A stretch of 64,000 bases of DNA. Source: Ignavibacteriales bacterium (GTDB lineage: Bacteria > Bacteroidota > Ignavibacteria > Ignavibacteriales > Ignavibacteriaceae). The notes under the pieces are model-generated. The model searched no databases and had not been told where the DNA came from. It worked only from the letters and a program-made list of their open reading frames with translations. This document shows, in pieces, positions 50,279-64,000 of this stretch. Location of the stretch: NCBI GenBank assembly GCA_015709675.1, contig CP054182.1, positions 2,025,448 through 2,089,447 on the forward strand, written 5' to 3'. The stretch's first letter is position 1, and the number at the start of each line of letters is the position of its first letter. The position numbers and the translations under genes are program-made.

Positions 50279-51040
50279 CTATTCCCCGCCGTATATTTCA
50301 CGGATTTTTGAATAGTATCTTCGGCTTATTTCAAAAGGTTCTGTGATGCCTTTTAATTTAACCCGGTAACTGCGCTGAAACCACTTCTCCACTTTTTCGA
50401 TTCCCTCAATATTAATGAGGGTTGCCCGGTGAATCCGGATAAAACTGGTTTGCGGTACCATATCTTCCCATTCTTTAAGAGAAAGAGATGAGATAATCTT
50501 CTCGCCGTTGGTGAGAAAGACTTTCGTATACTTGTCTTCAGCAGTTACACAGATGATGGTCCCGATTTTTACAAATTTGGGATTCCCCTTGTCCTTTAAC
50601 ATCACAAATTCATTAGGGTTGTGTTCTTTGACCGGCAGTTTTTGGGGTACGGCTGCTTTCATGCTCATCAGCTTTTCCCGTTTTTCCATCTGGGTTATTA
50701 TAGCTGAGCGAAGTTCCTCCATGTTAACCGGCTTCATCAGGTAGTCATCGGCGCCAAGTTCCATTCCCTTCCTGATATTTTCCCGCTCATGCATAGAAGT
50801 AAGAAAGATGAATGGAATAGTGGCTGTTGTATCCTCCTTCCCCAGTTCCTTTTTTAACTGATAGCCGTCAAGTTTAGGCATCATAACATCACAGATGATA
50901 AGGTCGGGGAGGACTCTTTTTGCCAGAGCAAGTCCCTCTGCTCCGTCGGGAGCGGTAATTACAGCGTATTGTTCAAGTTCCAGGAAAGTCCGGAGCATAT
51001 CACGGATAACGCGCTCGTCTTCAATTACAAGAATAGTCAA
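50279..51040 (-). CDS. LytTR-family response regulator
   Basis: 253 residues. CheY-like receiver at about 1-120 with the phospho-acceptor Asp51 in IICDVMMPKLDGYQL, acidic pair ED near residue 7, and conserved K in YLMKPVN. From about 150 to 250 there is a LytTR DNA-binding domain (ITAEDKYTKVFLTNGEKII, FIRIHRATLINI). The start is TTG with AGGA upstream. Its sensor kinase is not in the window. It is divergent from the receiver-PP2C gene and could control the locus. Confidence 0.92.
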   Translation of the reverse strand: MTILVIEDERVIRDMLRTFLELEQYAVITAPDGAEGLALAKRVLPDLIICDVMMPKLDGYQLKKELGKEDTTATIPFIFLTSMHERENIRKGMELGADDYLMKPVNMEELRSAIITQMEKREKLMSMKAAVPQKLPVKEHNPNEFVMLKDKGNPKFVKIGTIICVTAEDKYTKVFLTNGEKIISSLSLKEWEDMVPQTSFIRIHRATLINIEGIEKVEKWFQRSYRVKLKGITEPFEISRRYYSKIREIYGGE

Positions 51041-51246: not shown

Positions 51247-52362
51247 ATGAAAGCATTTCTCGTGGATGATGACACCCGGCTGCTGCAGATGCTGCAGATG
51301 CAGCTTGAACTGCACGGGTTTCAATGTAAAACCACTTCAGATTCCGTAACGGCTGCCCGGACAGCAGAATCATTTAATCCCGACATTATCATATCCGATC
51401 TGCAGATGCCGGAAGTTGACGGCTTTTTATTCAGGAAGCAGGTTATGGATAATCCGCGGCTGCGGGAGATACCCTTTATCTTTCTCACTTCAAATGACGA
51501 GGAGGAGAACCTGCTTGAGGGCTATAATCTGGAAATAAACGATTATATCCAGAAGACAACCAGTCCGCGTTTGCTGATTAAAAAAATTGAGACCGTACTT
51601 CAGAACCGGACACTTTTAAAGCAATCGGCAAAACAGGAACTTAAAAAAGCCGCTTCACTGGTTTCACATCAGCCTGAGGAACAGCAGCAGATCGCTGATA
51701 ATTTTACCGTAAGCATCATATGCAGACCATTTGCAGACACACCCGGGGGCGATTTCGTGGAAAAGATAGACCTTATCTCCGGGCAGACACTCTATATCAT
51801 TGCTGATGTTATGGGTAAGGAATGGGAGGCGTGGTTTCACTCATTTCCGTTTAAGAGCCACATCAAAGCAGCAGTTTCAGAACAGCAGCAGAAGGGGGGA
51901 GCGTTTGATGCCGCTGCGGTGCTTGATTCTCTTAACAGAATAATTACCAGTGACGGGCTGCTTGCCAATTATTCGATAGCAATTACGCTGCTTGTGGTTG
52001 ATCTGCATCAGTCTTCTGTGCAGATAGCAGGAGCCGGAAGTCTTCCGCTGTTCTGGATCAGACAGAATGGTATGGTTGAGGAAGTTGATCCCATCGAAGC
52101 AGCCCCGGGTTTCAGCCGTAAGACTGTATATACTTCCCGGGTTGTCTTTCCTGAGAAGGGGGAACGGCTGCTTGCCTTTACGGACGGTATCATCGAGTCG
52201 GCAGGGAATAACAGCCTTAATCTTTACCAGGAACTAAAGAATCTGCTTGCGGAGCATCCCGGTTATGAAAGTCTTGAGTGGCTTGAGAAGGAAATTAAAA
52301 GCCAGGCTGGATTTGAAGCTAGTGATGATGTCACCCTCCTTGAAATAAGAAGAAATTATTAA
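51247..52362 (+). CDS. Response regulator with PP2C-type (RsbU/SpoIIE) phosphatase output
   Basis: 371 residues. Receiver at about 1-120 with phospho-acceptor Asp51 in IISDLQMPEVDG; a linker; then a PP2C-type serine phosphatase (about 150-371). Metal-binding landmarks are all present: GGDF, ADVMG, FTDGIIES and SDDVTLLE. Phosphorylation of the receiver would be expected to switch the phosphatase. The likely target is the STAS protein two genes downstream. It starts the forward polysaccharide gene string, with only 11 bases to the next gene. Confidence 0.92.
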   Translation: MKAFLVDDDTRLLQMLQMQLELHGFQCKTTSDSVTAARTAESFNPDIIISDLQMPEVDGFLFRKQVMDNPRLREIPFIFLTSNDEEENLLEGYNLEINDYIQKTTSPRLLIKKIETVLQNRTLLKQSAKQELKKAASLVSHQPEEQQQIADNFTVSIICRPFADTPGGDFVEKIDLISGQTLYIIADVMGKEWEAWFHSFPFKSHIKAAVSEQQQKGGAFDAAAVLDSLNRIITSDGLLANYSIAITLLVVDLHQSSVQIAGAGSLPLFWIRQNGMVEEVDPIEAAPGFSRKTVYTSRVVFPEKGERLLAFTDGIIESAGNNSLNLYQELKNLLAEHPGYESLEWLEKEIKSQAGFEASDDVTLLEIRRNY

Positions 52363-52373
52363 ACGGTATTTCT

Positions 52374-53786
52374 ATGTTGTATGAAATTATTTTCTGGTCA
52401 GTCTTTTTTGTAATTGTATATACCTATGCGGGTTATGCACTTGCCGCGGTGATTATTGCAAAGATTCCCCTCTTCAGAAAAAGCTTTTTCCTTCCCCGGA
52501 ACAGGAGAGAATCAGTTGTCTCACAAGAGAATCCATACGAACCAAAGGTAACACTTATTATTTCCGCGTTTGCTGAGAGCAGAGAAATTATCAGGGAGAA
52601 AATCAGAAATACTTTTGCGCTGAATTATCCTAAGGAAAAACTCGAAATCTACTTTGCGATTGCGCTTGATAAGCGGGGTGATACCGATGAAACGCTTGAT
52701 GAGTATTTCCGTTATTTTATGGAAAGCGGAGTCTCCACCGGGCTGAAAAGCAAGACCGAAGAACTGCTGAGCAGGTTCACAATTCTTGATGCAGAGGGCA
52801 AACCGGATATTGAAGCCCTCAACAGAATTATAGCATTGCTCGAATCGGTTGAGGCAGATACTACTCAGATTGATCTCGATTATAAAAAGCAGCTTGAGGA
52901 TATGGCAGCCGGGAGAGATTTACGCTGGTTTGTCACCAAAGATGTTGAGCGGAAAGGGAAGATTTCTCAGGTGAACCGCACCGTTAAAAAAGCCTCAGGA
53001 GAGATTCTTGTCTTTTCTGATGCAAACTCAATGTTCAACAGCGATTCGATTAAAAATCTGGTCAGACATTTTGCTGATTCACAGGTGGGGTGTGTTGCCG
53101 GCGAAAAGAGGATCAGGAAAAATGAGAATTCATCCAGCGGTGAGGGGGAGGGCTTTTACTGGAAATATGAATCATTCCTGAAAAAAATTGACTCACAGAT
53201 TTACAGCACTATGGGTGCTGCGGGAGAGATTTACGCAGTCAGGCGAAATCTGATGGAACGCGGGGTTCCTGAGAATGCCATAATCGAAGATTTTGTCCTC
53301 TCCATGAAACTGGTTGAGGATGGTTACCGCATTGTTTATGAACCGGAAGCATACGCTGAAGAAGATCCGACGGTCACAATAACGGATGAATACAAAAGAA
53401 GAGCGAGAATTTCGGCAGGAGGTTTTCAGTCTATCGTTTTGCTCAGAAAACTGCTTAACCTGTTCAGTTACCGGATGGCTTCTTTTCAGTACATCAGCCA
53501 CCGGGTGCTTCGCTGGGCCGTGGTTCCCTTTCTGCTGCCGGTTATCTTCATTTTGAACCTCTTTCTGCTTGACAATCCGGTTTATCTGGTGCTGATGGTC
53601 TTACAAGTAATTTTCTATCTGCTCGGTGCCGGGGGGTATGTGCTTGAGAAACGGCACAAAAAAATCAGGATATTCAACATAGTCTACATGTTTCTCATGA
53701 TGAACTTTTCCGCATACGCAGGTCTGAAAAGATTTCTAAGCGGTAAACAGTCAACGCTCTGGGAGAAGGCAGCAAGGGTTTCCTGA
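52374..53786 (+). CDS. GT2-type membrane glycosyltransferase with a helical insertion
   Basis: 470 residues. One N-terminal and three C-terminal hydrophobic segments. The GT2 core begins at KVTLIISAFAE (about 58). Acidic motifs follow in FSDANSMF (D-A-N, about 216) and the ED pair in IIEDFVLSMKL, with RRARIS in place of the QxxRW motif. About 85-90 residues (roughly 99-185) of helical, acidic sequence are inserted between the first nucleotide strand and VTKDVERKGKISQVN. The product of the sugar transfer is unknown; the C-terminal helices place it in the membrane. Confidence 0.85.
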   Translation: MLYEIIFWSVFFVIVYTYAGYALAAVIIAKIPLFRKSFFLPRNRRESVVSQENPYEPKVTLIISAFAESREIIREKIRNTFALNYPKEKLEIYFAIALDKRGDTDETLDEYFRYFMESGVSTGLKSKTEELLSRFTILDAEGKPDIEALNRIIALLESVEADTTQIDLDYKKQLEDMAAGRDLRWFVTKDVERKGKISQVNRTVKKASGEILVFSDANSMFNSDSIKNLVRHFADSQVGCVAGEKRIRKNENSSSGEGEGFYWKYESFLKKIDSQIYSTMGAAGEIYAVRRNLMERGVPENAIIEDFVLSMKLVEDGYRIVYEPEAYAEEDPTVTITDEYKRRARISAGGFQSIVLLRKLLNLFSYRMASFQYISHRVLRWAVVPFLLPVIFILNLFLLDNPVYLVLMVLQVIFYLLGAGGYVLEKRHKKIRIFNIVYMFLMMNFSAYAGLKRFLSGKQSTLWEKAARVS

Positions 53787-53926
53787 AGCGGCATTGGGCT
53801 ATCATGCAGCGGGTTACAGATGTCTGACCGTTCAGGAGAAATAATGTACCGATTGTCGGCTATTGCCTGTTAACGCTCTCCCTGACCACTAAGTTTGATA
53901 CATAAATTAAAAATAAAAGGAAAAAA

Positions 53927-54265
53927 ATGAATCTCGAAATCAAAACTGAAAAAAACATCACTGTTATCGCTCTCGGAAGTGAAAGGGCGACCATCACTGA
54001 TGCACCAAAATTCAAAGCTGCTCTTGTTGAACTGATTGATAAGCAGGGAGTCAATAAAATTGTTGTTGAACTCAAAGGGGTGGAATTCATTGACAGTACC
54101 TTTCTCAGTTCACTGGTAACAGGGCTGAAACTGGTGTCTGAGAAGAAAGGGGATCTTAAAGTATCTCACCTGGAACCGCCGGTGCGCGTCATGTTTGAAC
54201 TCACCCGTTTATATAAGGTGATTGAAGTATTCGGCAATACCGCTGAAGCAGTAGATAGTTTCTAA
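53927..54265 (+). CDS. STAS-domain protein (anti-sigma-factor-antagonist type)
   Basis: 112 residues. SpoIIAA/RsbV-like fold with the phosphorylatable Ser57 in the motif VEFIDSTFLSSLV. Such proteins switch partners depending on phosphorylation of this serine. The receiver-PP2C gene two genes upstream is the natural phosphatase; no RsbW-like kinase is in the window. AAAGGA precedes the ATG. The 140-base leader contains a 9-codon frame with AGGAG at 53844-53873, which could be a leader peptide but is unsupported. Confidence 0.9.
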   Translation: MNLEIKTEKNITVIALGSERATITDAPKFKAALVELIDKQGVNKIVVELKGVEFIDSTFLSSLVTGLKLVSEKKGDLKVSHLEPPVRVMFELTRLYKVIEVFGNTAEAVDSF

Positions 54266-54287
54266 GCAAAGAAAGCAGAGCAGTTCC

Positions 54288-56093
54288 ATGAAAGCGATGA
54301 TATTATCAGCAGGAGTCGGCAGCAGGCTGTATCCTCTTACCGATAAACTTCCCAAACCGATGCTTCCGCTGGCAAATAAACCGGCACTTGAATATCTGGT
54401 TGACCTTTGCGCAAACAACGGTATTAAGGATATCAGGATGAATCTCCACTATCTTCCCGAAGCAATTGATACTTACTTTCATGACGGAAAGAAGTGGGGG
54501 GTAAATATATCCTATTCGCTTGAAAAAAAGCTGCTTGGTACAGCAGGCGCAGTTAAGAGATCTGAACGGTTTCTTGATGATACATTTGTGGTTCTCAGCG
54601 GAGACGGTTTTACCAATATGAACCTTGCTGAGATGCTGAACTTTCATAAGTCATCAGGCGCAAAGGTAACCATTGCGGTAAAAAAAGTGGATGATCCCTC
54701 GAAATTTGGTGTAGTAGTTACGGAACATGACGGAAAGATACTTGCATTCCAGGAAAAACCCAAAAAGGAAGAGGCAAAATCCGATACCGTGAATCTGGGA
54801 ATATATATCATTGAGCCGGAAATCCTGTCGCTTATTGAGAAGAATGTGCCGTATGATTTTGGTTATCAGCTTTTCCCTAAAATTCTTGAAATGAAAATTC
54901 CGTTTTATGCTTATCAGACAGAAGCATACTGGACGGATATCGGCGATATTCAGGAGTACCGGAATCTTAATCTTGATCTGGTTTCAAACAGAATATCAGG
55001 AAGCGAAATAACTTCAGGTGCTGAGAGAAATTTAGTACTCGGAGAAGGAACAAGAATCGGCTCAAATCTGGCGAAAAAAATCAGCGGACCGGCTATTATC
55101 GGAAAAAATTGCAAAATTGATGAGGATGTAACCATTACCGGCCCTGTGGTTATTGGTGATAATGTAATAATCGAATCAGGCAGCGTTATTTCTGAAAGTG
55201 TCATACTTTCTAATACTCACATTGGCAGAAATGTAAACCTTGACAAAAGTGTTACGAGCGAAAATTATACGATGAATATTCCTCACAATTTTGGTATGGT
55301 GGTTGATGATGAGAAAGTTCTGAAGCAGACAGAAACAGAAACAGCAGGTGAACGTTTCTCAAGAATACTGATTAATCTTTTTGACAGATCCGTGGCTTTG
55401 GCTGCACTCACAGCACTTACGCCCCTGTTCCTGATTGTCGCTCTTTTGATAAAACTTGATTCCAGGGGACCGGTTTTTTACCGTTCAAAGCGTGTAGTAT
55501 CGCCACAGATGAAAAGAACCGGCAGGAACTGGTATTTCTTCAGAGGAGAAAAAGCCCTCGGTTATACCGTTTTCCGCACTATGTATACTGACGCTGATAA
55601 AAGAATCGGTAATCTGAAGAATAAGTATGAAAACGGACCATTTATAAAAATTGAAGATGACCCCCGCGTAACAAGAGTAGGAAAATTCCTCAGAAAAACC
55701 TCGATTGACGAGCTGCCGTTGTTTATCAACGTACTGAAAGGAGACATGAGTCTGGTTGGTATTTGGGCGCTTCCGGTTTATGAAGCTGAATCACTGCTGA
55801 ACAACGGTCTCAAAATATTTGCCGGTGAAGAGGAACTTGATTTCTCTGAACTAGCTCAGGTGCGCTTTAGCGGAAGAGCCGGACTTGCCGGTTACTGGCA
55901 GTCACGCGGCAGATCACAGCTTACTTCAGAAGAACGTGCACTCCATGACAGCTATCAGGCGGCACAATACCTGTACGGAAAAAAATATAAAAAATCACTC
56001 GGAAAGTATTCACAGCATACTACCATTGGCGGTTATTTTACCCTGATTAAAGAAACTTTTCTGTCAGTGGTTAAACGGACAGGTGCTATCTGA
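54288..56093 (+). CDS. Fusion of NDP-sugar pyrophosphorylase and polyprenyl-phosphate sugar transferase
   Basis: 601 residues. Residues 1-230: nucleotidyltransferase with GVGSRLYPLTDKLPKPMLPL and VVLSGDGFTN. About 240-335: left-handed beta-helix of hexapeptide repeats. About 355-395: a hydrophobic segment; then about 395-600: a bacterial sugar transferase of the WcaJ/WbaP type (RVTRVGKFLRKTSIDELPLF, NVLKGDMSLVG). The first half makes an activated sugar; the second transfers a sugar phosphate to undecaprenyl phosphate, starting the repeat unit. No stop or frame break separates the halves, so this is a genuine fusion. Confidence 0.9.
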   Translation: MKAMILSAGVGSRLYPLTDKLPKPMLPLANKPALEYLVDLCANNGIKDIRMNLHYLPEAIDTYFHDGKKWGVNISYSLEKKLLGTAGAVKRSERFLDDTFVVLSGDGFTNMNLAEMLNFHKSSGAKVTIAVKKVDDPSKFGVVVTEHDGKILAFQEKPKKEEAKSDTVNLGIYIIEPEILSLIEKNVPYDFGYQLFPKILEMKIPFYAYQTEAYWTDIGDIQEYRNLNLDLVSNRISGSEITSGAERNLVLGEGTRIGSNLAKKISGPAIIGKNCKIDEDVTITGPVVIGDNVIIESGSVISESVILSNTHIGRNVNLDKSVTSENYTMNIPHNFGMVVDDEKVLKQTETETAGERFSRILINLFDRSVALAALTALTPLFLIVALLIKLDSRGPVFYRSKRVVSPQMKRTGRNWYFFRGEKALGYTVFRTMYTDADKRIGNLKNKYENGPFIKIEDDPRVTRVGKFLRKTSIDELPLFINVLKGDMSLVGIWALPVYEAESLLNNGLKIFAGEEELDFSELAQVRFSGRAGLAGYWQSRGRSQLTSEERALHDSYQAAQYLYGKKYKKSLGKYSQHTTIGGYFTLIKETFLSVVKRTGAI

Positions 56094-56095
56094 TC

Positions 56096-56764
56096 ATGAT
56101 ACAGGTGCTGGTGCTCTTTATGTTTTTTCTTCCGGGTTTTATTGATGCGCAGCAGGTATTTGATAAATACCGTGATAATGAAACGGTTCTGATCGCTAAA
56201 CTGGTGGAAGCCGCGCAGAGGAATAATCCCCAGATTTCTGTATATGCAAACAGAATTGAACTCGCCCGCGAAAACAATACGCAGGCGAAATGGAGCTGGT
56301 TTAATAACGTTAATCTTTCATATCAGTATGTCCCCAATTATGGCGGTGCTGAGCAGTCATCCGGACTGCCAAAATTCGGACTCGGGCTCTCGGTGAATCT
56401 TGGAAATATACTTTCAACCCCGAGCCGGATTACCCAGACGGAAAGTGAAATCGCCATTGCAGAAGCAGACTATAAAACCAATCAGCAGTATCTGAAAGCA
56501 GAAACTATCAGGAGGTATGCCAACTTTAAAAGAGCAACTGAACTGCTCAAAACCCGCGATCAGGCAGTGAACGATTCAGAATCTACCATGCTTCTGGTAA
56601 AGCATCGCTTTGAGCAGGGGGAAGCCACTCTGGAGGATTATAACCGGGCGCTGAGAGCATATACCGATAACAAAGAACGGAAGATCGAAAGCATGGGGGA
56701 TATTCTCGCCCATAAATACAGTCTTGAAGAAATTATTGGAATATCCCTTGAGGAACTGGAATAA
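56096..56764 (+). CDS. Half-size TolC/OEP-like outer-membrane protein
   Basis: 222 residues. Signal peptide to about 18 (FFLPGFIDA). The rest follows one TolC repeat: a long helix (about 35-62), a beta pair (VNLSYQYVPN, FGLGLSVNLGN), and a long coiled helix (about 107-215). TolC/OEP proteins normally hold two such repeats in about 400-450 residues; only one is present. It would need higher oligomerisation to make a pore. It overlaps the Wzc-like gene start by one base (TAATG), so it likely serves polysaccharide export. Confidence 0.75.
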   Translation: MIQVLVLFMFFLPGFIDAQQVFDKYRDNETVLIAKLVEAAQRNNPQISVYANRIELARENNTQAKWSWFNNVNLSYQYVPNYGGAEQSSGLPKFGLGLSVNLGNILSTPSRITQTESEIAIAEADYKTNQQYLKAETIRRYANFKRATELLKTRDQAVNDSESTMLLVKHRFEQGEATLEDYNRALRAYTDNKERKIESMGDILAHKYSLEEIIGISLEELE

Positions 56765-59049
56765 TGGATCTGATTCGTTTCATTAAAGTCCTGCTTAAAC
56801 GGAAAAAACTGCTGGTGATCATACCCCTTATCGGAATGGCAGCAGCATTTCTCCTTACCATGAAAGGCGCGGAGGTATATAAATCAGAAACAATGCTTTC
56901 CGCAGGTATTATTGATGACACAAGAATCTCACTTGAAGAAAATGTGGTTGAAAAAACCTCATCGTTTGTGACAGCTACCAAGTTCAGCAATCTGATACAG
57001 ATGATTAAATCGAAATCAGTAATAGATCTGGTTTCCTATCAGTTGTTGTTGCACGATCTTACAGCGGATCAGCCCTTCAGAAAGTTCAGCAAAGAATCCG
57101 CATTTCTATTAAAAAGCGGTACTGATGAAATGATTCAGGTTCTTGAAGAAAGAAAAATTTCGTTTCAGCCAGGTCCCTTTACCGAAGAAACAGATAGAAA
57201 TATCCGCCGGCTCATTGCCGCTCAGAAATACAGCTTTGAAGAAATCAGCAAAAAACTGAAAGTTGAGCGGGTTGGGGAGAGTGACTTTATTAAAATGACC
57301 TTTGAGTCGGAGAATCCATATTTATCAGCGTTTATTCTTAACACGCTGACTCAGACTTTTATGGGGTATTACAAGACCATAATGGGGGAAAAGACAACCG
57401 AATCAGTGGATTTTTTCTCGAAACTGGCAGAGGAGAAAAAACGGGAACTGAATGAACTGGTGCAGAGGCTCAAAGAGTTTAAAATGGATAATAAGATTGT
57501 GAATCTGTATGAGCAGACAAAGTCCATTGTGAACCAGATCAGCTCACTTGAAATTATACGTGAAAATGAAGTCAAGAAGATACCATCTCTCACCAAAGCC
57601 CTTAATGACATTAATAAAAAATTCACGCCGGAAGAACGGAAATATATTGAAGCGGAGTATTCCAGGAATTCACGCATTATAAGTGAAATTAAGGAAAAGA
57701 TTAACAGTCTAAGCGCACGCGTGATTGAGAGCGGATATACAGATAAAGCAGCACAGGATTCGGTTGCACAGCTAAGAAGCCGTCTTGCCTCACTGGTAAC
57801 CACCATGTCAGACAATCTGGTGCTGAATCCAAATGCAAGTATGCAGAATCTGGTTGAAAGAAAACTTGAGTACGAAATTGAGCTTGCCATTGCTAACGAA
57901 AATGTAAAGTCAAATGACCGCGAATTAGGACGTTTACAGACCATTGTTCAGTCATTTGCCCCTTCTGAAGCGACCATTTCCGGGATTGAACGGGAAATAA
58001 GCGTTGCTGCAGAATCGTATCTTGTTATCCTGAATAAGCTGAACGTTGCCAAATTTGCCGTGCAGGATATGGGAAAAAGTATTCAGCAGACAGAAATTGC
58101 ACTTCCCGCGGAAAAACCGGAGCCAAATAAAAAGCTGCTGCTGATTATTCTGATGGGTGTTATCAGTTTTGTCCTTACGGTTGTCGCGATTTTTGTTCTT
58201 GAGTATATAGACCTTACCATTCAGTCACCGGGCAGGTTTGTGAGGTTCTCCGGACTCACAACTATCGGAGATATAAATCAGCTTTACACCAAAACGGTGA
58301 ACATCAAGGAGATTTTTAACGGTGCATCATCTGACCCCAGTCTGATCTATTTCAAAAATGCACTGAAGAATCTCAGATACAATGTTTCCAATCTCCTTTC
58401 ACAAGGGAAAATCTTTCTGGTAACAGGAACATCACAAAAAACCGGTAAGTCATTCATAGTTTCCGTACTTGCGTATGCAATCAGTTTAACCGGTAAGAAA
58501 GTTCTTATCATAGATGCTAACTTCCGGAACAATAGTCTGAGTATGCAGTTTAGCTCTGAAAACGGTGCTGAAGAACTGATGTCAGGACGGGGGGATCTAT
58601 TTGCAAGAATTAAACAGAGCAGTGTTGCAGGAGTGGAGAGCATTGGTACAGATATTCGAAATCAGTCTCCGGGAGAACTTATTGATGAGGAAGGATTCAG
58701 AAAAAATCTTCAGGAATTATCCTCTCAGTATGATGTAATTCTGATTGAAGCACCTTCAATGAACTCAGATACTGATGCTAAGGAATTATTCAGTTTTGCA
58801 GACCATATACTGATGGTATTTTCAGCCAGGGGAATACTTGAACCGGCTGACAAACGCAGCATTGATTTTGTGAAGAAGTCTGGCAAATCCTTTTCGGCAA
58901 TACTGAACAGAATTGAATATGAAAACCTGGAAGAGCTGCAGGGTGAAATGGCAAAACAGCGCTCAGCGTTCCGTTCATATATCAAGAAACTGATTAAGAG
59001 AAACCTTGAAGGGAAAAAAGATAAAGCCAGCGAAATGAGGATGGGCTGA
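56764..59049 (+). CDS. Wzc-like polysaccharide copolymerase with degenerate BY-kinase domain
   Basis: 761 residues. Wzz-like N-terminal transmembrane segment (about 15-32), a long coiled-coil periplasmic part (about 215-440), a second membrane segment (about 458-476), then a Walker-type ATPase region. Walker A is GTSQKTGKSF (about 554). Walker A' reads IIDANFRNN, with Asn where the usual DxD has Asp. Walker B-like is VILIEAPSM in place of the usual IDTPP. The C-terminal tail has no tyrosine cluster. It probably controls chain length, with weak or no kinase activity. Confidence 0.88.
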   Translation: MDLIRFIKVLLKRKKLLVIIPLIGMAAAFLLTMKGAEVYKSETMLSAGIIDDTRISLEENVVEKTSSFVTATKFSNLIQMIKSKSVIDLVSYQLLLHDLTADQPFRKFSKESAFLLKSGTDEMIQVLEERKISFQPGPFTEETDRNIRRLIAAQKYSFEEISKKLKVERVGESDFIKMTFESENPYLSAFILNTLTQTFMGYYKTIMGEKTTESVDFFSKLAEEKKRELNELVQRLKEFKMDNKIVNLYEQTKSIVNQISSLEIIRENEVKKIPSLTKALNDINKKFTPEERKYIEAEYSRNSRIISEIKEKINSLSARVIESGYTDKAAQDSVAQLRSRLASLVTTMSDNLVLNPNASMQNLVERKLEYEIELAIANENVKSNDRELGRLQTIVQSFAPSEATISGIEREISVAAESYLVILNKLNVAKFAVQDMGKSIQQTEIALPAEKPEPNKKLLLIILMGVISFVLTVVAIFVLEYIDLTIQSPGRFVRFSGLTTIGDINQLYTKTVNIKEIFNGASSDPSLIYFKNALKNLRYNVSNLLSQGKIFLVTGTSQKTGKSFIVSVLAYAISLTGKKVLIIDANFRNNSLSMQFSSENGAEELMSGRGDLFARIKQSSVAGVESIGTDIRNQSPGELIDEEGFRKNLQELSSQYDVILIEAPSMNSDTDAKELFSFADHILMVFSARGILEPADKRSIDFVKKSGKSFSAILNRIEYENLEELQGEMAKQRSAFRSYIKKLIKRNLEGKKDKASEMRMG

Positions 59050-59051
59050 AA

Positions 59052-60254
59052 ATGGAATTCATAATGGATATTTTTACCTTTCTGCTTTTTGCGCTGCTGA
59101 TTTTTCCGCTTATGACGGTGCTGATGCATCTCCTGCTGAAAAAACGCGGAAAAAAGGAGTATCATTCTGCTGATGGCAATCATGACTTTGCCGTTATTGT
59201 AACTGCATATAAAAATTTCAGTGTTACACTGGCATCAATAGAGTCATTAATTAGGCAGAATTATCCTTCAGAGAAGTATTTTGTTTATGTGGTTGCTGAC
59301 GGGTGTGAGGATATTACTGAGGTTTCATCAGACCGTGTGGCTGTGCTTAAACCTGAAGAGCAGTTAAACTCAAAAGTACGTTCCATGCTTTTTGCAATTG
59401 ACCGCTTTAAGAGAAAGCATGATTACATAATAGTAATAGATGCAGATAATGTCGCGGCCCCGGATTACCTTGAACAGATGAACCGGTTTACCCGACAGGG
59501 ATATACTGCTGTGCAGGGCAAAAGAACCCACAAGAATCTTGATACTGCTTATGCCGGACTTGATGCTGCAGGTGAAATCTATTATAACTATACCCAGCGG
59601 ACGGTTCCGTATCAGCTTGGTTCTTCAGCAGCAATTTCCGGATCAGCAATGGCAATTAAAGCCTCAGTGTATGAGAACCTCCTGCGTGAAATAAGCAGCC
59701 AGAGCGGTGTGATACTTGCAGAGGACAAAATGCTGCAGAACTACCTTGCAAAGGAAGATTTTGTTACCGCTTTTGCGGAAAATGCCCTGGTTTTTGATGA
59801 AAAGATTTCGAAAGGGGTACAGACACAGAGGCAGCGGACACGATGGTTAAAATCCTATTTTGATAATCTGAAAACAGCCTTCGGAATTGCAGTGCTCGGC
59901 CTGAAAAAAAGAAGTTTTAATCAGGTGTTTTTCGGTATAATGACAGCCTATCCTCCGATTATCATAATGATTCTTTTCTCCGCAGTTATAGTTTTATTAA
60001 ATCTTCTCTTTGCTCCGGGTGGAATATTACTTATCGCTGCCGGCTGGATATTGTTTGTTTTTTGCTTTCTGTTTGTTCTTCTGATTAATCATGCCCGTAA
60101 AGAAATATGGAAATCACTTTTTTCAATTCCTCTCTTTGCTTTCCGGCAGGTAATGGCTCTGCTCAATCTGAAAAAATCTAAAACTGATTTTCTTGCAACG
60201 GAGCATACGAAAAACAGGTCTGTTGATGATATACTGAAAGAGATGAAACGATGA
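59052..60254 (+). CDS. GT2 glycosyltransferase
   Basis: 400 residues. All classical GT2 marks are visible: FAVIVTAYKN start, VVADGCED, VIDADNVAAPD (DxD), AEDKMLQNYL (ED) and QRQRTRWLKSY (QxxRW). One N-terminal and three C-terminal hydrophobic segments place it at the membrane. An alternative ATG is 12 bases inside. It is 2 bases after the Wzc-like gene and overlaps the next gene by 4 bases. Sugar specificity is unknown. Confidence 0.9.
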   Translation: MEFIMDIFTFLLFALLIFPLMTVLMHLLLKKRGKKEYHSADGNHDFAVIVTAYKNFSVTLASIESLIRQNYPSEKYFVYVVADGCEDITEVSSDRVAVLKPEEQLNSKVRSMLFAIDRFKRKHDYIIVIDADNVAAPDYLEQMNRFTRQGYTAVQGKRTHKNLDTAYAGLDAAGEIYYNYTQRTVPYQLGSSAAISGSAMAIKASVYENLLREISSQSGVILAEDKMLQNYLAKEDFVTAFAENALVFDEKISKGVQTQRQRTRWLKSYFDNLKTAFGIAVLGLKKRSFNQVFFGIMTAYPPIIIMILFSAVIVLLNLLFAPGGILLIAAGWILFVFCFLFVLLINHARKEIWKSLFSIPLFAFRQVMALLNLKKSKTDFLATEHTKNRSVDDILKEMKR

Positions 60255-61372
60255 AACCACTGAGAGTACTCCACACCATCAGACAGGGATCCGTCGGAGG
60301 CGGAGAGACTTATCTCTATAATCTGGTAAAAAGTCTTGATCGCAGCCGTTTTGAACCGGTTGTGCTGAGTTTTACCGAAGGGGAGATGGTTGACCGACTG
60401 AGGTCACAGGGGATTACAACCCACGTGATTTATACAGAAAAGCCCTTCGCTGTTCATCTCTATACCAAGGTAAAAAAGCTTATCATTGATGAAAAGATTG
60501 ACTTTGTGCATATTCATGGTACCCGTGCAGCAACCAATACACTGATCCCGGCCCGAATGGCGGGAGTACCTGCAATATATACCGTACACGGATGGTCGTT
60601 CCATACTGGCAATAATAAGCTGGTGACCTGGTCGAGGATTCTTTCGGAAAAGTTTATTACACGGTTTGCTGATCAGACTGTCTGCGGTTCGGAAGCTGAC
60701 CTTACAGAGGGGAGAAAACATTGTCCGGCGGGCAGATATAATCTGATACACAACAGTATTGACTCCAACAGCTTTAATCCGGAAGTGGTGACCTCTTCAT
60801 TCAGGGAAGAGAACGGATACTCATCAGGAGATTTTATCGTGTCATTTATAGCACGCATGACGTTTCAGAAAGATCCGCAGACCTTTATCAGGGCTATACC
60901 GCTTGTGCTGAAATCAGTTCCGGATGCAAAATTCCTCATGGTGGGTGATGGTGAATTAAAAGAAGAGGCCATGGCGCTTGCAGTGGAACTGAAAATTGAG
61001 CAGAATATCAGATTCCTTCCTTTTTCAAAAAATGTGAAGGAAGTCCTTAAAGCAGTTGATGTGTTTGTTCTTCCCTCATTGTGGGAAGTAATACCTCTTG
61101 CGTTACTGGAAGCAATGGCGATGAAAAAACTCTGCATCGGAACTGATATACCCGGCACAACCGAAGCATTAAAGGACGGCGTGAACGGATTTTTATTTAA
61201 GACGGGCAATGAAAAAGAGCTTGCTGAAAAAATGCTGGCGGCCTATGCAGTAAGGGACAGCAGAGAACTGCTTACTTCATCGGCACGAAAAACAGTTACA
61301 GAACATTTTGATCTGAAGCAGCTTGTGAGAAAAAATCAGGCGCTTTACGCAAAACTTCTCTCGCAGGCATAA
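60251..61372 (+). CDS. GT4 glycosyltransferase
   Basis: 373 residues. GT-B fold, GT4 type: glycine-rich QGSVGGGETYLYNL at the N-terminus, HIHGTRAATNTLIPARMAG, FIARMTFQKDPQT, and EVIPLALLEAMAMKKLCIG, the E-x7-E region that binds the nucleotide sugar. The retaining mechanism is family knowledge. The start overlaps the upstream GT2 stop (ATGA); its end overlaps the flippase gene start (TAATG). Confidence 0.92.
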   Translation: MKPLRVLHTIRQGSVGGGETYLYNLVKSLDRSRFEPVVLSFTEGEMVDRLRSQGITTHVIYTEKPFAVHLYTKVKKLIIDEKIDFVHIHGTRAATNTLIPARMAGVPAIYTVHGWSFHTGNNKLVTWSRILSEKFITRFADQTVCGSEADLTEGRKHCPAGRYNLIHNSIDSNSFNPEVVTSSFREENGYSSGDFIVSFIARMTFQKDPQTFIRAIPLVLKSVPDAKFLMVGDGELKEEAMALAVELKIEQNIRFLPFSKNVKEVLKAVDVFVLPSLWEVIPLALLEAMAMKKLCIGTDIPGTTEALKDGVNGFLFKTGNEKELAEKMLAAYAVRDSRELLTSSARKTVTEHFDLKQLVRKNQALYAKLLSQA

Positions 61373-62715
61373 TGGCCGATAAAAATTACTGGCTGCGTTC
61401 AGGCACTTATACTCTCCTGCAGCGTCTGTTTACTGTTCTCTTCGGTTTTGGCTCCTTTGCTATACTGGTGAGGTATCTGAGCAAAGATGACTTTGGAATC
61501 TATGCTCTTTTTATATCAGTATCCTCGCTGATAGAAGTAGCACGTATCGGGCTGATACAGAATGCACTCATTAAATTCCTTTCCTCGGCAAAAGATGAGG
61601 ACTATAAGGAAATCATCAGTTCCTCTTTCTTTCTGAATATACTGGTTACGGTCATTCTTGTCGCGGTTCTTGTAATCGCGGCTCCCTTTCTGGGAACACT
61701 CTGGAATTCTGAAAAAATTGTTCCGCTTTTCTATCTCTACACCATCACAACTGTCATACTTATTTTCTTCCATCAGTTTAACTACCTGCAGCAGGCGAAT
61801 CTTGACTTCCGCGGATTTTTCTTCAGCAACTTTGCGCGCCACGGTTCATTTTTTCTGATGGTGATTGCTGAGGTATATTTTATAAAACCTGATGCCGATC
61901 TTAACCGTCTGGTTATCTATCTGAGTGTGGGGGCGGTACTGGGAACGCTGACCTCCTTCGGTTTTGGAAAAAAATATCTCCGCATGGCCGGATATATAAG
62001 CCGTGAATGGGTAAAAAGACTTTTCCAGTATGGCAAATATGTTTTTGGCACTAATATTAGCACCATGCTTTTTACGAGCATTGATCAGTTTATGCTTGGT
62101 ACCATGCTTCCGACTTCTTCAGTGGCGGTATTTAATACAGCAAACCGGGTTAATAATCTTATTGATGTACCGGTTTCATCTGTGGCGGCAATAGTTTTTC
62201 CGCAGAGCGCAAAACGCGCATCGGAAGAGGGACATGATACCGCGGCCCGGCTTTATGAAAAATCGGTTGGTGTTCTGGTTGCCATTCTGCTGCCGGCTCT
62301 TTTCTTTATGTTCCTCCTCGCTGACTGGGTGATTATTATCATCGCCGGGAGTGCTTATCTGGAATCTGCTCCGATCTTGCGGGTAATCCTTATTACGGCA
62401 TTTTTTCAGCCGTTTGTCAGGCAGTTCGGCACCATTATGGATTCCGTGGGCAGGCCAAAGACGAATTTTTATCTTATTATGATTATTTCCCTGCTTAATG
62501 TTGCGTCGAACTATATTTTCATAAAAGCATTCGGCACCATCGGGGCAGCTCTGGGGACACTGGTTACTATGGCTCTTTTTACCGTAATCGCACAGATTTT
62601 ACTTAAGAAGTATCTGCAGGTACGGCTTATTTCGGTATTTGCCCAAATCCCTGAAACCTACATGGAGGTCTTTCGCATCGGGGCTCAGGCCATGGCGAAA
62701 ATAAAAAAACGCTGA
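61372..62715 (+). CDS. Wzx-type polysaccharide flippase (MOP superfamily)
   Basis: 447 residues with about twelve hydrophobic segments. The N-terminal TYTLLQRLFTVLFGFGSFAI and the middle YGKYVFGTNISTMLFTSIDQ resemble the polysaccharide-biosynthesis O-unit flippases. It would move undecaprenyl-linked repeat units across the inner membrane. It overlaps the GT4 gene by one base. No Wzy polymerase is visible in the window; it may follow the last gene. Confidence 0.9.
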   Translation: MADKNYWLRSGTYTLLQRLFTVLFGFGSFAILVRYLSKDDFGIYALFISVSSLIEVARIGLIQNALIKFLSSAKDEDYKEIISSSFFLNILVTVILVAVLVIAAPFLGTLWNSEKIVPLFYLYTITTVILIFFHQFNYLQQANLDFRGFFFSNFARHGSFFLMVIAEVYFIKPDADLNRLVIYLSVGAVLGTLTSFGFGKKYLRMAGYISREWVKRLFQYGKYVFGTNISTMLFTSIDQFMLGTMLPTSSVAVFNTANRVNNLIDVPVSSVAAIVFPQSAKRASEEGHDTAARLYEKSVGVLVAILLPALFFMFLLADWVIIIIAGSAYLESAPILRVILITAFFQPFVRQFGTIMDSVGRPKTNFYLIMIISLLNVASNYIFIKAFGTIGAALGTLVTMALFTVIAQILLKKYLQVRLISVFAQIPETYMEVFRIGAQAMAKIKKR

Positions 62716-62722
62716 CCCTGAG

Positions 62723-62799
62723 CCCGGAATTTCCGGGTTACCTTTCATCCGGAAATTTGATCCGTTTGTCGGGACTTCGGGGGAGACGGGAGGCCCGAA
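62723..62799. other. Hairpins between the flippase and glycosyltransferase genes
   Basis: A near-perfect palindrome CCCGGAATTTCCGGG (62723-62737) and a second stem TTCGGG/CCCGAA (62776-62781 with 62794-62799). The word ACTTCGGG also occurs in the hairpin of the tRNA-Asp remnant at 22.97 kb. This may be a dispersed repeat or an intra-operon processing site; no T-run follows. Confidence 0.5.
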
Positions 62800-62834
62800 A
62801 GGTAAATTTTGTGCATAAAATTAGAAATTTAAGC

Positions 62835-64000
62835 ATGAAAAACAGAGATATCATTATTGTCGGTTTGCAGGATTGGGATACACCGATCGGCAGCAATTGT
62901 AAAAATATTGCGCTGGAATTCGCCCGGGACAATCGTGTGCTCTATGTCAATTACCCACTTGATATGATCACTTTTCTCAGGGAAAAAAGCAATCCGAACA
63001 TCAGGAAAAGAATAGATGCTATCACTTCCCGTAAAGCGCAAATCAGGGAAGTGCAGAAAAATCTCTGGAGTTTTTATCCCGCCAATCTTATCAGTTCCAT
63101 AAACTGGATTGCATCCCCCTCTCTTTTTAACTACCTGAATAAACGAAATAACAGATCCTTTGCAAAGGAAATAAAAAGAGCGGCAAAGATGCTTGGCTTT
63201 TCCAATTACATTCTTTTTAATGATAATGATATCTTCCGCAGTTTTTATCTGAAGGAAGAGCTTCAGCCGGATATGTCGGTTTATTATATACGCGATTATC
63301 TTCTTTCCGTTCCCTACTGGCAGAAACATGGCGCCCGCCTTGAGCCGGAACTGATTCAGAAATCGGATGTGGTTGTTACCAATTCCGTATATCTGAGAAA
63401 TTATGCTGCCCGATACAACAGCAATTCCCACTATGTAGGTCAGGGATGTGAAACCGATCTTTTTGATCCGGAAAAACAGTATCCGGTGCCTGAAGAACTG
63501 AAGTCAGTTAGAAAACCTGTCGTGGGTTATATTGGCATGCTTGCCTCGCTGCGTCTGGATATACAGCTTCTGATCTCGCTCGCCGAGAAGATGCCGGATA
63601 TATCATTTGTGTTTGTCGGGCCGGAGGACAATGATTTTGCTTCAAGCCGCCTGCACAACATCAGCAATGTGCACTTCCTTGGCTCAAGGGAAGTAAGCCG
63701 TCTGCCGGAATATGTTGCCCATTTTGATGTTTGCATCAATCCGCAGATTGTAAATGATGTAACGATAGGAAATTATCCCCGCAAGGTTGATGAATATCTG
63801 GCAATGGGAAAGCCGGTTGTTGCAACAAGAACCGAAGCAATGGAAGTCTTTAATGACCATACATATCTTGCTCTGGGAGCAGATGATTATGCTGAAAAAA
63901 TCACCCGTGCACTGCAGGAAAACTCAGAAGCACTGAAGAAACAGCGCAGCCAGTTTACCAGAGAGCACACCTGGGAAAACAGCGTTGCGGCTATATATAA
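62835..64000 (+). CDS. Glycosyltransferase (GT-B type), 3'-truncated by the window edge
   Basis: At least 388 codons, open to the last base. Landmarks are VVGYIGMLASLRLDIQLL, FVFVGPEDND and YPRKVDEYLAMGKPVVATRT, which give the donor-binding half of a GT-B enzyme (TuaH-like group). The acceptor is unknown. An in-frame GTG at 62811 with GAAAGG upstream is an alternative start to the ATG at 62835. It is the eighth gene after the STAS-coding region begins and shows that the locus continues to the right. Confidence 0.85.
   Translation, partial: MKNRDIIIVGLQDWDTPIGSNCKNIALEFARDNRVLYVNYPLDMITFLREKSNPNIRKRIDAITSRKAQIREVQKNLWSFYPANLISSINWIASPSLFNYLNKRNNRSFAKEIKRAAKMLGFSNYILFNDNDIFRSFYLKEELQPDMSVYYIRDYLLSVPYWQKHGARLEPELIQKSDVVVTNSVYLRNYAARYNSNSHYVGQGCETDLFDPEKQYPVPEELKSVRKPVVGYIGMLASLRLDIQLLISLAEKMPDISFVFVGPEDNDFASSRLHNISNVHFLGSREVSRLPEYVAHFDVCINPQIVNDVTIGNYPRKVDEYLAMGKPVVATRTEAMEVFNDHTYLALGADDYAEKITRALQENSEALKKQRSQFTREHTWENSVAAIY

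Follow-up and report, generated by a model that had tools for sequence, protein, structure and literature searches.

Which step of polysaccharide synthesis, if any, is governed by a receiver-phosphatase and a STAS protein that are encoded in the polysaccharide operon itself? This question is raised by a 64,000-nucleotide stretch of an Ignavibacteriales bacterium genome (contig CP054182.1, positions 2,025,448 to 2,089,447; here called the window), which belongs to a single-contig genome of 4.21 Mb and was compared with relatives from the Ignavibacteria. An earlier note on this DNA had claimed three genes at 51247-54265 at the head of a polysaccharide operon. All three are found there in the list of open reading frames, and Pfam and NCBIfam profiles confirm that a receiver-PP2C phosphatase, a PgaC-like family 2 glycosyltransferase (GT2), and a single-domain STAS protein lead the operon.

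The first gene (51247..52362, plus strand; Pfam, alignment, and tree) encodes a SpoIIE-type phosphatase of 371 amino acids with a single receiver. Pfam recognizes a Response_reg domain at residues 4-115 (E 3.5e-20), a SpoIIE/PP2C domain at residues 179-369 (E 1.5e-22), and no kinase or GHKL domain. The receiver residues D7/D8, D51, and K103 can be read directly off the sequence, and the PP2C domain is complete, as had been claimed, with the metal-binding acidic residues intact (an alignment with eight homologues shows no change at GGD169, D187, D313, and D360/D361). Of 80 genomes in the family, 69 encode a full-length member of this phosphatase subfamily (best E-value below 1e-50), with the neighboring genes read in part of them. 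A role in phage defense, for which the sole basis was a weak SduA match across part of the receiver, was rejected.

The GT2 gene follows (52374..53786, plus strand; 470 amino acids), and its product matches Glyco_trans_2_3 in Pfam (E 7.5e-16); the closest NCBIfam family is PgaC/IcaA, with a score far under the cut-off, and identity to the operon relatives is 48-54%. The third gene (53927..54265, plus strand) encodes a STAS protein of 112 amino acids that matches Pfam STAS (E 3.9e-13) and clears the TIGR00377 cut-off for anti-sigma factor antagonists. Its putative phosphorylation site, Ser57 in the IDST motif, lies at the phospho-serine position according to the alignment, is invariant across nine STAS proteins, and is aligned with what we take to be Ser58 of SpoIIAA. 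The branching of the STAS tree does not settle whether the window protein falls within the operon group. The gap between GT2 and STAS (53787-53926) measures 140 bases in the window versus about 30 in two relatives of the same family (G053 and G009) and could possibly hold a separate promoter; none was recognized there. Across the window, sigma54-like promoter sites are unsupported (22 matches with <=2 mismatches versus 29.8 expected), and sigma70-like sites occur at chance level.

Downstream, on the same strand, the operon continues with a fusion of a sugar-1-phosphate nucleotidyltransferase (hexapeptide repeats) to a PglC-type sugar-phosphate transferase (54288..56093; Pfam), an outer-membrane efflux-type protein and a Wzz/BY-kinase-like protein (56096..59049; Pfam and NCBIfam, with identical order in relatives), and more glycosyltransferases with a flippase-like protein (59052..63998), the final gene of which exits the window. 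The Wzz/BY-kinase-like protein (56764-59049) has no evident C-terminal tyrosine cluster. A receiver-LytTR regulator (50279..51040, minus strand; Pfam) is encoded divergently next to the operon and is at most a candidate link to the switch.

We examined how constant this layout is by a GT2-anchored survey of 391 genomes of the class together with a scan of named genomes. The order of receiver(s)-PP2C, GT2, and STAS recurs in Ignavibacteria, and the proposal is thus not refuted by a lack of conservation. With an RsbW-like gene of about 190 amino acids between STAS and the fusion, the order is found in 11 other genomes, and without that gene it is found in two, the window genome and G406, both of which have a single receiver. 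Within the same family, G053 and G009 share the full order, from receiver-PP2C, GT2, STAS, the ~190-amino-acid gene, and the fusion to the outer-membrane efflux-type protein, Wzz, a glycosyltransferase, a GT4, the flippase, and a final glycosyltransferase, which, apart from the ~190-amino-acid gene, matches the window order to its end; the phosphatase of G053 carries two receivers and that of G009 one. Two further operons of this family were covered in part (G054) or are split across two contigs (G008). The first five genes recur in this order in seven genomes of a second family (G195, G231, G262, G270, G162, G134, and G258, the last with a contig that begins within GT2, so that the position of its phosphatase gene lies outside the data). 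Named example genomes are UBA6667, MAG_55, UTCHB1, SZAS-86, and UBA9002. In six genomes of a third family, the order is histidine kinase, response regulator, sigma54 response regulator, GT2, STAS, fusion, and REC-REC-PP2C, with no RsbW-like gene; it is complete in G130, G120, G090, and G100, the contig of G139 begins at GT2, and that of G110 covers only STAS, the fusion, and REC-REC-PP2C.

A search anchored on the fusion found 19 loci in 18 of the 391 genomes, of which 18 loci were testable (one is cut by a contig end, and the STAS gene of G054 came from a separate search). In 18 of 18, STAS adjoins the fusion or is separated from it by the RsbW-like gene only, and it keeps this place where the RsbW-like gene is absent or the phosphatase gene has moved. 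STAS also adjoins GT2 at nearly all loci. These observations support the view that the trio is kept together as part of the polysaccharide operon, and they point to a STAS target among the neighboring synthesis enzymes; gene adjacency is in itself no proof of contact. Among 72 loci with distant GT2 matches in other groups (L155-L226), a STAS or RsbW-like gene lies nearby only at L157-L159, which are from Ignavibacteria.

The earlier note described the switch as kinase-less. This holds for the operon and for the window, from which a kinase is absent, but not as the basic design, since most relatives with the same order have an RsbW/SpoIIAB-fold gene immediately downstream of STAS. The window STAS gene stops at 54265 and the fusion begins at 54288, and the RsbW-like gene is thus cleanly absent from the site of 22 bases (54266..54287) at which the gene maps place it in 11 relatives. 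The ~190-amino-acid proteins match HATPase_c_2 weakly and under the cut-off (E about 0.002). When they are aligned to the window genome's three canonical kinases, Glu and Asn of the N-box are retained but Asp of the G1 box is not; a long insert precedes the G2 region (ATP-lid insert), and [ED]H[FY]G[LIM] stands in place of the glycine-rich G2 motif. An AlphaFold2 model of a relative's protein (mean pLDDT 87.7) has as its 20 top PDB matches 18 SpoIIAB, RsbW, or anti-SigF chains and two Leptospira LvrC chains. As judged from this model, these proteins form a divergent RsbW/SpoIIAB-fold family, which, having lost the G1 Asp, may be no kinase even where it is encoded.

Members of this family were found in 16 genomes in a class-wide search (taken to cover the same 391 genomes), with none listed for G406 or the third family, and pairs of STAS and RsbW-like genes occur in other genomes of the window's bacterial family as well. 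G009 has two such genes (L099:3448-4002 and L143:1249-1863), of which the operon copy is fast-evolving and the orphan copy groups with the operon copy of G008. In a distant Bacteroidota family (f33), an RsbW-like relative is present in 24 of 101 genomes, and all 19 loci read there (L310 and L331-L348) hold a trio of receiver-PP2C, STAS, and RsbW-like genes beside two divergent GT2 genes; the wider link to GT2 is weaker because GT2 genes of that class often occur with no trio beside them.

If the operon has no kinase gene, where might STAS be rephosphorylated from? A search for an RsbW-like kinase elsewhere in the genome, as the earlier note had proposed, found three canonical ones and one STAS-(RsbW-like) fusion. 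Our top candidate is an orphan RsbW (3133222-3133629; L110:9223-9630) that has no adjoining STAS gene and to which 11 of 12 relatives, all but G139, have a best-matching canonical RsbW-like protein, with 31-55% identity for the best copy in each. In the window genome, it is followed by a gene for a malate-dehydrogenase-like protein of 321 amino acids (a name based on sequence rather than on a profile match), and in six relatives the matching gene has a neighbor of 321-322 amino acids. The second candidate is the STAS-(RsbW-like) fusion of 309 amino acids (922184-923113; L138:8184-9113, minus strand), the one member of the RsbW-like family in the window genome. This fusion is not supported as the relocated operon gene, since G032, from the same genus, shares it and the two fusions group with the RsbW-like copies of G008 and the G009 orphan only at 86/87.

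The best explanation, to which we give a probability of roughly one in two, is a reduced, signal-controlled STAS switch inside the polysaccharide operon. A histidine kinase would phosphorylate Asp51 of the receiver and so change PP2C activity; the phosphatase would strip the phosphate from Ser57 of STAS; and STAS, most likely in its unphosphorylated form, would act on a synthesis enzyme encoded close by, with the nucleotidyltransferase-PglC fusion and GT2 as candidates, and thereby set polysaccharide output. Rephosphorylation would depend on a kinase from another locus of the genome. Most relatives have a dedicated RsbW/SpoIIAB-fold gene inside the operon. We infer every biochemical step of this scheme, as well as the kinase and the target. 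That STAS is kept beside the fusion even without the RsbW-like gene suggests that it does more than antagonize the RsbW-like protein. In a tentative, more specific version, STAS might reversibly bind and directly regulate the fusion or the GT2, so that a two-component signal would control glycan initiation or elongation post-translationally, and the RsbW-like family, where present, might be a non-canonical kinase or a capture protein.

Anti-sigma factors are frequent targets of STAS proteins. The main rival, which we consider possible but doubtful, is a classical transcriptional partner switch in which STAS, by competing for an anti-sigma factor of the RsbW type (encoded in trans here and within the operon of relatives), releases a sigma factor, while its position among the operon genes serves only co-expression or feedback. 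The RsbW/SpoIIAB fold of the relatives' partner and the presence of canonical RsbW-like proteins in all 12 relatives tested speak for such a switch, as does the precedent of HsbA and CrsA, which control sigma factors by partner switching, HsbA with several partners (PMC6482189). However, no sigma-factor gene lies in the operons read, STAS stays beside the fusion where the RsbW-like gene is lost, and the operon STAS subfamily is distinct in the STAS tree from the genome's RsbV-like STAS proteins (100/99).

The switch might, alternatively, be decaying in the window lineage, with the phosphatase under relaxed selection once the RsbW-like gene was lost and STAS constitutively unphosphorylated. This lineage has lost both the RsbW-like gene and one receiver domain (two is the number in most operon relatives), and its phosphatase evolves unusually fast. 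Its PP2C domain shares a mean of 28.7% identity with dual-receiver copies, where GT2 reaches 53%, a ratio of 0.54 that compares with 0.76-0.86 in dual-receiver operons, 0.69 in G406, and 0.70 in G009, and the window copy is the longest branch of the PP2C tree, where, as the tool warned, long branches are unsurely placed. Accelerated divergence of this kind could be decay, yet the reading frame and the catalytic residues are intact, and the phosphatases of the third family diverge slowly without any member of the RsbW-like family, which leaves decay an unlikely explanation. Under the favored reading of a STAS switch, the missing RsbW-like gene, the missing receiver, and the fast phosphatase together suggest a switch that is undergoing simplification or rewiring here. 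The genome is indeed so rich in such genes (11 STAS and 14 SpoIIE-type PP2C domains) that a STAS gene near a PP2C gene is unremarkable alone, but the order, which carries the finding, is repeated in three families of the class, and this makes placement of the regulatory genes in the operon by chance, with no functional link, very improbable.

The logic of partner switching is already known; what appears to be new is the way the genes are arranged, along with the divergent RsbW-like family and the fixed neighborhood of STAS and fusion; we found no description of this arrangement, or of an anti-anti-sigma protein with exopolysaccharide genes in Ignavibacteria, in the open-access literature, an absence that is weak evidence. 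Our survey also brings in a divergent family of RsbW/SpoIIAB fold that accompanies receiver-PP2C and STAS genes in distinct Bacteroidota groups, and operons with and without the RsbW-like protein offer a natural comparison. The gene order names candidate targets, the fusion and the GT2, whereas the target of the SypA type of STAS protein is recorded as unknown (PMC8256260). With STAS fixed beside the fusion even though the phosphatase gene changes position and the kinase-like gene is present in some operons and missing from others, the question of the target becomes testable by simple binding assays.

Among known systems, the syp locus of Vibrio fischeri likewise encodes a receiver and PP2C with a single-domain STAS protein in a polysaccharide locus. 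The comparison drawn by the earlier note is apt, as the third family has a histidine kinase, a sigma54 response regulator, STAS, and REC-REC-PP2C within its polysaccharide cluster (compare SypF, SypG, SypA, and SypE), although the window operon has no counterpart of SypF or SypG. A family-wide set of the same four genes, parallel to sypF/G/A/E, lies outside polysaccharide clusters in the window genome (L108:8277-13186; genome 1122277-1127186). In the PP2C tree, the third-family copies join this set (100/100), and the polysaccharide-operon copies stand apart from it. SypE controls polysaccharide production below transcription, via SypA (PMC12369376), and SypA acts unphosphorylated (PMC8256260). 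SypE, however, has its own N-terminal kinase domain (PMC3610818), whereas in the Ignavibacteria the PP2C domain comes with one or two receivers and the RsbW-like part, in relatives, is a separate gene.

Pseudomonas HsbR/HsbA and Shewanella CrsR/CrsA also pair a receiver-PP2C with a STAS partner and control biofilm or stress, but HsbR and CrsR end in a C-terminal kinase/anti-sigma domain, which the window protein lacks, and their description holds no membership in a polysaccharide operon (PMC6482189). The hmp system of Nostoc (HmpU/HmpV/HmpW) ties a partner switch to motility and polysaccharide; its STAS protein is thought to be active when dephosphorylated, with an unknown target, and Anabaena all4160 combines STAS and glycosyltransferase in one fusion (PMC8256260). 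In contrast to the window operon, hmp encodes its own kinase, HmpW. The same three kinds of part make up RsbU/RsbV/RsbW and SpoIIE/SpoIIAA/SpoIIAB of Bacillus, to whose SpoIIAB/RsbW chains the model of the relatives' protein is best matched; that protein differs by its missing G1 Asp and its ATP-lid insert. The Ignavibacteria operons differ in having no sigma factor and in a phosphatase that bears receiver domains, and the window retains the intact PP2C and the STAS serine, with no cognate kinase gene alongside. The window system probably resembles Syp and Rsb partner switching in how it works, but it does not belong to the Syp system.
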